Assembly (NCBI GenBank): GCA_963576725.1
Contig: OY755252.1
Coordinates: 28,836,078-28,900,077 of the forward strand
Origin: Azorinus chamasolen
Taxonomy: Eukaryota > Mollusca > Bivalvia > Cardiida > Solecurtidae
Reading direction: 5' to 3'
Length of the DNA stretch: 64,000 bases
Under the pieces are notes generated by a model. It did not search any database, was not told the DNA's origin, and was given only the letters and a program-made list of their open reading frames with translations. The position numbers and the translations under genes were made by a program. Below, in pieces: positions 52,001-55,000 of the stretch. Within the stretch, counting starts at the first letter, position 1; each line of letters begins with the position of its first letter.

Positions 52001-55000
52001 CGTACAGTCAATACTTTAAACCCGATGGCGCATACAGAGCTAGTCATTTAAGCGATGGACCATTCTTTAGCGTTAATGATTCGATAACTCACACTAGAAA
52101 TATTAGTAATGCCTGGACTACTTTTTTATTAGATAAATCTAACGGATTTACTCATACGGGATTAGTTAGAATAAACGAAAGTATTAGAATATTCGTATGG
52201 GCTTTACTAGGATCTCAAAGTCAAACTAGAGTAGAAATTTTAAAGGTAGGAACCGGTTTTGACGCTCAAAAACAATTCTTAGCAAATATACAGGATGCTG
52301 TCAATAGTCCGATAGATTTACCGAGTCAGATTTCAAAATACGAAAATGTTTTAAAATATGCGAGAAGTAAAGTTAATTACAGTTACGGACTCGGTCTTTA
52401 TATGTCTCCGAGCGATATGATTTTACAAATAGGAACTATTGTCGGATATAATAATGAAATTGTAGTATCAACCGAAGAACAAGTTTTAGGAATTAACGAT
52501 GACGTTAATTCGATAAATAAATCTCCTTCTAACGTAATAAATGGAACAAAAACTAAAAAATCTCCTATTATTTCTATTAAAAAACCTGAACCTAAACCTA
52601 AACTAGAACCTGAACCTGAACCGGAAGTAAACCCGAAGGTATCCGAACACGAAGATGAAAAAACGGCAATAATAGTAGGAAGTATAGCGGTAGGTCTTAC
52701 AGTTTTATTTATTTATCGTTGAGATACTCTTTTGCCGCCGTAAATAATAATCCGATAACTAAAACTAATAAAACCCATAGATTATTAGCGAGCCAATTAA
52801 CGACTTTACCCGTTGCGGATAACAACCACGATACGATAGCCCCTATTATTCCCGGTAATGCCGCTGCCGCTTTACCGGCTAATTTAGCTAATAATTTTCC
52901 GATATTAGATAATTGTTTTTTTATCCAATCTTTCACGCCGTCGCCTTTTGGCGGTGGCGTAGATCCTCCTCCGCTGATAGCACCACCTTCACCGGGTATA
53001 ACGGCTTCTACGATAACACCGATAATCATACCGAATGCGGTTAAAACGCTAGCGATCGTAATTCCTTGTTCCCTGAATAAAGTTTTTATTCTTTTGGCTA
53101 ATGTAGTGTCTTCTCTTAATACTTTATGTATAGTTTCTTTTATTCTATTTAATTGACTTCTTAATCTTTCTTTATCAACATTAATCACTTCAAGTCTTCC
53201 ACTTCTCTCACTTTCTAAATTTATTATTCGTTTTTTATCTCTTTTATTTGATCTTCATCATCGGTTTGTTCTAATTTTTATTTTTATTTTGCTATTTCTT
53301 TATTTGTTTCACTCAGTTTTGCTACTTCATGTGCTATCTCTTCTTTAACCGTTGTCATTGCTTCCGTAATAGCATCATATTCTCTTCTCGGTATAGATAC
53401 CATGTCTGTTTCTAATTCATTTATTACTAATTTTGCATTGTTAAAATTGGTTTCAACGGTATCTGTTAAATCTCGTACGTCTTGTTCGGAATAAATATCT
53501 CCCATAGGAATTTTTTCTGGTCGAATTTTATTATTTGCATCAATTAGTTGTTTTAATTCCTTTCTACCCTTTCTAACTCTAGTACTATGAGGATCATAAT
53601 CTTCTACTCCTAAAACGTGTCTAATAAAATCAACACCATATTTCCCTTGAAGTGTGTCAAATGAATAAAATTTCATTATAGCATCAGGGTTTGTACCATT
53701 GTAAAATGATAGGGGGTATTTTATATTATTATCCTCCACACCAAACAAAGGTCTTCCATATTTATCGGGTGTTATATACAATTTGATATTCCTATTATTT
53801 AGTGGTTCTTGATTTCTATCATAAAATTGCTTTAAACATTTATTTAACAAAGAATGAGTTTCTCTTTCCCCGTCTGGTCCTGATAGAGTATCTAATTCAT
53901 TATATTGAGTATTCAACGTACGTTGAAATTGTCTTTCACGATCAATAAAAGATTTTTCTTCTTCTTCATCTTCATGATCATAATCATCTTTATCAAAAAT
54001 AGGATTTTCAAAATCATATCCGCCTTCAGCCATTTTTATTCGGAATAAGTTGGTGGGGGATTTTCATATCTATAATTATTAGTAACATAATTATTATTAT
54101 TAATTGTATAAATTATTCCTTTTTTAAACTGTTTTGTATAGTATTCATCGCTTCCTCTTTTACCTTCTCGATTAATTTTTTTTTCTTCCTCAGTTATTAC
54201 TTCAGTGTCTAATTTTTTTATTGATATAATTTCTTCTTTAAGTTTAGAATATTTTTCCATTTCATTTAAAATCAATTTAAACTCTTCCGAACTTATTTCT
54301 CCATCTTGTAGGGATTTAGATATAATATCCTTAATACTATTTAGTTTACTTTCCGCTACTGCTAGAACATTACAATGTTTTTGAGTTTTTGCCATTAATT
54401 TACGTCTTATTATTTTAACGCACATACCTACTCCTCCGCAAATTATAGCGGCTATTTGTATAGGTAATAGAACTGGTATAGATATTCCTATTCCGGCTAA
54501 AATAACGCTAGCGGATATTAAACCGGTATCTACTCCGTCCGTAATATTAATACCTCTTTTATATTTTTTTCTTAAAGATTTTCTAGTATCTCTTTCGTTA
54601 ATTAATATTCTTTCAATCTCCGATATTTTCTGCAACCTGTAATTCTGCCCGTCTTCTACGGGCAGATCCGGATATATAGAAGGAGCCGTCGGTTGCTTCA
54701 TTTTTAAGGTATTTTTTTTAGTTAATATGGGGACATAGGAGCGTTCTGTTTTTACTTTCACGTTCGGTGTCCCTTTTTTATTTTCGTACCCTTCCCCACC
54801 CACGATAGTTTCTCTCTGTCCCTCCTTTAGGTTTTTTTTTATTTTTTTACTCATCTCACTGTCCCTCCTTTTACCCCCCACGTACCTTTTTTTATTTTTA
54901 CATCTCTCCTACCCTCGATAGTTTCTTGTGTCCCTCCTTTAGGTTTTTTAAAATTTTTACTCGTCTCACTGTCCCTCCTTTTACCACCCCCCATGTACCT

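Follow-up and report, generated by a model that had tools for sequence, protein, structure and literature searches.

The present work describes a gene of a Polinton element in the bivalve Azorinus chamasolen whose predicted membrane protein carries three different short motifs of the late-domain type at its two ends. The gene lies in a 64,000-nucleotide stretch of contig OY755252.1 (assembly GCA_963576725.1, positions 28,836,078 to 28,900,077 of the forward strand), which is referred to here as the window and in which all positions are numbered. It is a 221-residue open reading frame (ORF) on the minus strand, at positions 54036-54701, and it holds a PTAP motif, a YPDL motif and a PPTY motif. 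In the relatives of the gene the two N-terminal motifs are retained and constrained, and an arrangement of reading frames that governs access to the third recurs in several subfamilies. Use of the endosomal sorting complexes required for transport (ESCRT) for wrapped exit would be the natural reading of such motifs by analogy with budding viruses. The best overall explanation, to which we give an even chance, is that the protein acts as a membrane-hairpin ESCRT adaptor for the wrapping or exit of particles, in which the PPxY motif is present conditionally. The parts of the gene that matter for this reading are as follows.

54681..54692, minus strand: PTAP, residues 4-7, a motif of the TSG101 type (translation and motif scan)
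54663..54677, minus strand: IYPDL, residues 9-13, with YPDL at 10-13, a motif of the ALIX type (translation and motif scan)
54405..54536, minus strand: hydrophobic stretch, residues about 56-99, a predicted helical hairpin (hydropathy; models with a turn at 72-80)
54176..54184, minus strand: run of nine A near codon 173, whose length mostly determines in which frame the C-terminal tail is read (comparison of run length and frame in 67 copies)
54113..54175, minus strand: alternative tail of 20 residues followed by a stop in another frame, equivalent to the tail of short-form copies (three-frame translation)
54045..54056, minus strand: PPTY, residues 216-219, within PPPTYSE, a motif of the type bound by NEDD4 WW domains (translation and motif scan)

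The initial annotation had claimed PTAP at residues 4-7, YPDL at 10-13 and PPTY at 216-219 of a single 221-residue reading frame, with a long hydrophobic region between the terminal motifs. Translation of the minus strand confirms the motifs, so that the core motifs of a late-domain protein are all present in the window copy, and hydropathy confirms the hydrophobic region at residues about 56-99 (hydrophobic windows of 19 residues start at residues 56-81). Frame 1 of the plus strand contains many stops over the same interval. When the protein was shuffled 200,000 times, all three motifs never occurred together, nor did P[ST]AP and [LIV]YPx1-3L ever occur jointly within the first 20 residues, and the single motifs arose at frequencies of 0.14%, 2.3% and 1.6%. 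Among the 15 ORFs of the element that were scanned, P[ST]AP is found in this gene alone; PPFY is present in a 113 amino acid (aa) ORF, and the polymerase and integrase frames have a plain YPx2L each.

Relatives of the gene were collected from two sources. In the species' own genome (1.72 Gb in 137 contigs) 150 of 659 candidate copies were scored, and 67 copies were analyzed, viz. the window copy and 66 picked by hand from the 150, which had been ranked by their likeness to the window protein; copies with PPxY in frame are probably over-represented as a result of this choice. The second collection consists of 226 proteins, which likely include proteins of other species; they were drawn from the best 120 matches of each of three protein searches (391, 417, and 301 matches), together with protein P0001, and grouping at 85% identity of the protein body divides them into 37 clusters. 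All 67 own-genome copies can be read from the ATG of the sequence MKQPTA, and what lies upstream is mostly terminal repeat; hence the start of the ORF that was originally given is very probably the true one. An ATG further upstream at 54854, which would yield 272 aa, was rejected, about 120 of the 153 additional bases being part of the terminal repeat.

The N-terminal pair of motifs is retained in nearly all of these relatives. In the own genome P[ST]AP is kept in 66 of the 67 copies and [LIV]YPx1-3[LIVM] in every one. In the protein collection P[ST]AP is present in 208/226 sequences and [LIV]YPx1-3L in 218/226; the corresponding figures are 32/37 and 35/37 for cluster representatives, and 34/37 and 36/37 for clusters in which at least one member bears the motif. 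The third of the protein searches scored only residues 20-192 of protein P0166, so that the N-terminus could not draw matches, and of the 31 new proteins that it contributed 24 have P[ST]AP and 28 have YPx1-3L, with two of the misses beginning inside the tail. The spacer between the motifs ranges from 0 to 6 residues in the 31 representatives that have both, and the residues beside the motifs vary, yet K2, Q3 and a P after YPxL are common. Variation at the DNA level was examined in the 63 own-genome copies with at least 160 residues open. At the PTAP codons the proportion of differing nonsynonymous sites (pN) is 0.005 and that of synonymous sites (pS) is 0.46, giving a pN/pS of 0.011, and these synonymous sites are among the most changed of the gene (84th percentile). 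The pN/pS values elsewhere are 0.14 for residues 10-13, 0.28 for residues 14-19 and 0.25 for residues 20-150. Further motifs are sometimes added in the same tail: P[ST]AP is duplicated in 2/226 proteins, a PPxY overlapping YPxL is seen in 10/226, and PPEY follows YPxL in 7/67 own-genome copies, all of one subfamily (L019-L021, L026, L028, L033, L060). The initial annotation had proposed that the motifs should be kept while their flanks diverge; for the N-terminal pair this is the pattern found, and homologues with the same body but randomly varying termini, which it had named as the contrary outcome, are not what the collection contains. Retention across these sequences favors a function for the pair, and that this function is that of late domains is quite probable in our judgment.

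The third motif behaves differently. DNA encoding PPxY is present in 65 of the 67 own-genome copies, and its frame relative to the ATG is the same in 30 of them, -1 in 25 and the third frame in 10; an uninterrupted frame from the ATG through PPxY is found in 25/67 copies, i.e., in 25 of the 30 with PPxY in frame. The frame mostly tracks the length of the A-run near codon 173, the longest run there being nine in 17/30 in-frame copies, eleven in 17/25 copies at -1 and ten in 7/10 copies in the third frame. Where PPxY lies at -1, the frame of the ATG typically ends in a tail of about 20 residues (KLIE...) that lacks the motif. Of the 64 copies that could be evaluated (two of the 67 have no PPxY and one has no run), 61 have no stop in the PPxY frame between the run and the motif. 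A pattern search that was less bound to frame, and that required flanks of the window type, gave 17 sites; by match length alone 8 are of the in-frame type, 4 of the next length and 5 of -1 types, a classing in which other insertions or deletions can also shift the frame, as in L017 and L018. In the protein collection PPxY is visible in 30/226 homologues and 7/37 clusters, and the short tail is commoner; the short-form entry P0225 by itself represents 617 sequences. The claim that one protein carries all three motifs thus holds for the window copy and does not extend to the gene in general, as PPxY is off the frame of the ATG in 35 of 65 copies. Likewise, PPxY is kept while its flanks diverge where its frame is visible, and this part of the proposal is not general.

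Both tails recur in several subfamilies of the own genome, and from one subfamily to the next the flanks of PPxY change but its core remains similar (one loss is seen, PPSVY in P0150). For eight pairs, each of a short-form and a PPxY-bearing protein, we asked whether one DNA sequence could encode both tails at -1, with 200 shuffles for each pair. The fit is complete for P0014/P0002 (42/42 residues; shuffles at most 31, other offsets at most 27) and for P0225/P0189 (44/44; shuffles at most 32, other offsets at most 30), and it is nearly so for P0201/P0186 (42/44; shuffles at most 34) and P0225/P0187 (40/44; shuffles at most 32). Among four pairs with short overlap, three fit at 10/10 (shuffles at most 8 or 9), and P0099/P0122 fits at 10/12, which is no better than its shuffles. 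Hence, the arrangement is not peculiar to the own-genome copies. A slippery A-run ahead of an overlapping -1 frame, as in programmed -1 frameshifting, is present, and it is generally established that slippage in transcription and -1 shifts can take place at A-rich sites (PMC5009743). Changes of run length in the germline plainly flip copies between frame states, and slippage in expression, which is compatible with such flipping, would keep a -1 tail useful. Whether the PPxY tail is made through slippage in expression we regard as evenly balanced.

Three further observations were made in this part of the gene. Synonymous divergence falls from the 5' to the 3' end, from 0.46 at PTAP through 0.23 at residues 101-150 to 0.10 in the tail, for which recombination between subfamilies is one possible cause. 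Copies L028 and L050 have a T run near codon 173 where other copies have the A run, as if it had been inverted or replaced. In L069 (368-2254, plus strand) PPxY is lost and the frame runs on into sequence of the two genes that follow, giving an ORF of 628 aa.

Structural predictions bear on how the two tails may be placed. AlphaFold2 models were made from 34 and 70 aligned sequences, with mean predicted local distance difference test (pLDDT) scores of 61 and 64, respectively. Helices are modelled at residues 15-72, from 79 or 80 to 133, and from 138 onward, with a turn at 72-80, and both termini, including the tail in which PTAP sits, are modelled at low confidence as coil or weak helix. Since the hydrophobic stretch at residues 56-99 spans the turn, these models make a membrane hairpin likely, in which the two tails would lie on the same side. 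A Foldseek search of predicted viral structures with the model of mean pLDDT 64 gave as its best matches three proteins of invertebrate-type iridoviruses, viz. A0A5B8RH66, S6DF61, and A0A068QKD3 (E-values 3.9e-8, 5.8e-8, and 5.5e-7; 27-28% identity), and the same three also led with the first, lower-confidence model. Other searches for relatives of the membrane protein were negative: scans of IMG/VR confirmed none, the PDB gave nothing below E 0.33 by sequence or below E 0.18 by fold, Pfam gave no family at E 0.1 for the 272-aa reading, and among three homologues scanned against Pfam there was one match only, to YhfT and below its cut-off (P0225).

The mechanism that we propose joins these elements. 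The two hydrophobic helices would form a hairpin that leaves both flexible tails in the cytosol, where the N-terminal tandem of P[ST]AP and [LI]YPxL would bind TSG101, of ESCRT-I, and ALIX. These partners would bring the membrane-scission machinery to the membrane at which particles assemble, and the particles could then be wrapped or released in vesicles. The PPxY at the end of the gene, a putative site for NEDD4-type ligases that often lies at -1 behind the A-run, would become part of the protein in copies whose A-run has a length that places it in frame, and in other copies it may be added to a fraction of the products by slippage at the run. Given a late-domain function, a role in exit is somewhat favored over one in entry or sorting. 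The most far-reaching form of this proposal, in which Polintons are membrane-wrapped viruses with an ESCRT adaptor shared with iridoviruses, and in which slippage yields one form that recruits TSG101 and ALIX and another that recruits TSG101, ALIX and NEDD4, we consider doubtful.

Several results weigh against reading the protein as a budding adaptor with a slippage-gated third motif. The better of the two models reaches moderate confidence (mean pLDDT 64), none of the genes of the element was identified as coding for an envelope glycoprotein, and PTAP is not uniquely invariant, being 24th by pN among the 147 windows of four residues. Beyond the run, the PPxY frame has a pN/pS of 0.56 in 50 copies, and the two other frames have 0.62 and 0.97; for the -1 copies taken separately the values are 0.68 as compared with 0.58 and 1.27. 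Selection on the tail is thus not clearly indicated. Pseudoknot-free folding of 72 nucleotides behind the run in five loci found no stable RNA structure (-0.3 to -3.2 kcal/mol). The stimulating structure of a classical ribosomal frameshift signal is thus lacking at these loci, so that slippage of the polymerase, or of the ribosome without a stimulator, is the likelier route. The last two results also lend weight to the strongest of the competing explanations, which dispenses with slippage in expression and regards the run changes as germline homopolymer mutations, after which only one form of the tail works and the other copies decay, or the two forms work equally well and the tail is neutral. 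A-runs are mutable, and 10/67 copies are in the third state, having the frame of neither tail at first reading; against this explanation, both tails recur in several own-genome subfamilies and in proteins from other sources, the PPxY core stays alike within differing flanks, and its frame is open in nearly all evaluable copies. We regard it as a substantial possibility, if still the less probable side of the question.

The remaining alternatives concern what the N-terminal motifs are for. They could serve entry or intracellular transport, the protein being a membrane-active companion of the capsid that steers incoming particles or acts in membrane repair in the manner of adenovirus protein VI, which uses PPxY and Nedd4 and belongs to viruses related to Polintons (PMC11071308, as excerpted). 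The pair that is kept, P[ST]AP with YPxL, is however typical of exit in the excerpted account of PMC2651531, and PPxY is retained less regularly than the other two motifs, so that this alternative appears unlikely. Conservation of the N-terminus might also have some other cause, for instance the binding of another partner or a function of the DNA beside the terminal repeat, in which case the likeness to late domains would be incidental; invariance of the same degree is seen elsewhere in the protein, and K2 and the positions following the motifs vary little as well. The highly changed synonymous sites (pS 0.46) argue against a function at the DNA level, and the motif residues are kept over variable spacers with exchanges of T/S, E/D or L/I, which late domains tolerate, and we therefore judge this explanation improbable. 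Least credible by far is a chance occurrence of short motifs: a single YPxL or PPxY does arise in about 2% of shuffles, but the full set arose in none of them and the pair is retained across the 37 clusters.

Several known systems resemble the protein in some respects and differ from it in others. Late-domain proteins of enveloped RNA viruses, including retroviral Gag, likewise carry P[ST]AP, YPxL and PPxY in flexible tails, several per protein (excerpts of PMC2958808 and PMC2651531); the Polinton protein, a putative late-domain protein, differs from these in that it is predicted to cross the membrane several times or as a hairpin, belongs to a DNA element whose capsid is probably of the jelly-roll type, and often has its PPxY in another frame. 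Among DNA viruses, the iridovirus tiger frog virus buds with ESCRT by means of proteins with YPXnL, ASAP and PPxY motifs that bind Alix, Tsg101 and Nedd4, and the best fold matches of the Polinton protein are also iridoviral; in the virus, according to the same excerpt, the motifs are spread over VP031L, VP065L, and VP093L and binding has been shown, whereas in the Polinton they occur in one protein and are read from its sequence (PMC4880917). Hepatitis A virus, which was held to be non-enveloped, leaves cells in vesicles through ALIX-type contacts and is in this respect comparable to what is proposed here, but its signal is an extension of a capsid protein that binds Bro1 domains, whereas the putative signal of the Polinton resides in a membrane protein (PMC9410543, in excerpt). 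Adenovirus protein VI offers a PPxY in an internal protein of a Polinton relative; there the motif serves entry, and the excerpted account does not describe a pair of P[ST]AP and YPxL (PMC2841620). For the Penton genes of adintoviruses, which are Polinton relatives, alternate C-terminal tails through -1 frameshifting behind slippery sites have been suspected; that case concerns another gene and a KnotInFrame prediction, and the excerpt draws no link to late domains (PMC11071296).

The element that carries the gene extends from about 36594 to 55272 (18.7 kb), and the gene is the first inside the right terminal repeat, reading inward. Like other Polintons, the element has long terminal inverted repeats, of about 540 bp and containing shorter repeated units, whose arms are 96-98% complementary across the two longest blocks; its ends are AT-rich, with no clear 6-bp target-site duplication. 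The tips, at 36594-36756 and 55110-55272, each appear by eye to be long imperfect palindromes, with ACAAAATGGGG...GTTCTGGC near one end and GCCAGAAC...CCCCATTTTGT near the other. The remaining features of the element are listed below.

36594..37137, plus strand: left terminal inverted repeat, inner end approximate (repeat comparison)
39063..42777, plus strand: two frames resembling parts of a protein-primed family B DNA polymerase (by eye only)
42782..43639, minus strand: retrovirus-like integrase, as expected of a Polinton (Pfam rve, E 3.8e-8, above cut-off)
46012..46335, minus strand: piece of an A32-type packaging ATPase (Pfam Pox_A32, E 3.4e-5, above cut-off)
46607..47869, minus strand: probable major capsid protein (Pfam Capsid_N, E 8.3e-4, below its cut-off)
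52709..53029, minus strand: hydrophobic 106-aa protein (ORF list, hydropathy)
53284..54033, minus strand: 249-aa ORF, the next gene (ORF list; DUF4238 match below cut-off)
54735..55272, minus strand: right terminal inverted repeat, inner end approximate, the gene starting about 33 bp inside it (repeat comparison)

The putative capsid protein has no match among PDB sequences at E 0.01. The polymerase-like region is split into frames of 556 aa and 619 aa with a gap of about 180 bp, so that the window copy may be defective there; Pfam gave only Endonuclease_7 for the first frame (E 2.2e-5) and nothing for the second. Two minus-strand ORFs at 47886-48491 and 50269-50814 are similar to each other, share the start MSIFGTKK, and have a predicted-looking coiled region that is fibre-like by eye; neither has a Pfam family above cut-off. 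A 413-aa ORF on the opposite strand (51481-52722, plus) has a hydrophobic C-terminal segment at residues 393-413 and is a candidate surface protein, for which no solved relative was found. Beside the element, a minus-strand ORF at 34924-35541 resembles part of an alpha-amylase by eye.

A search of open-access literature brought up no paper that reports late domains in a Polinton; the co-mentions of Polintons and ESCRT seen there, in excerpt, concern dUTPases and the origin of cellular life and viruses. The gene bears on the open question of the route by which Polintons exit a cell and pass from host to host. A putative fusogen is reported from Mavericks of nematodes (Widen, according to PMC10680173), and PMC11071296 mentions an adintovirus with a candidate envelope glycoprotein; alongside these, an ESCRT adaptor would supply the exit half of a membrane-bound life cycle. 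If the interpretation is correct, late domains would extend to the Polinton class of elements, and a third motif gated by a homopolymer run would be an unusual route to two forms of a budding adaptor. The finding raises the possibility that Polintons, which are supposed to be naked, exit their host cells inside a membrane.
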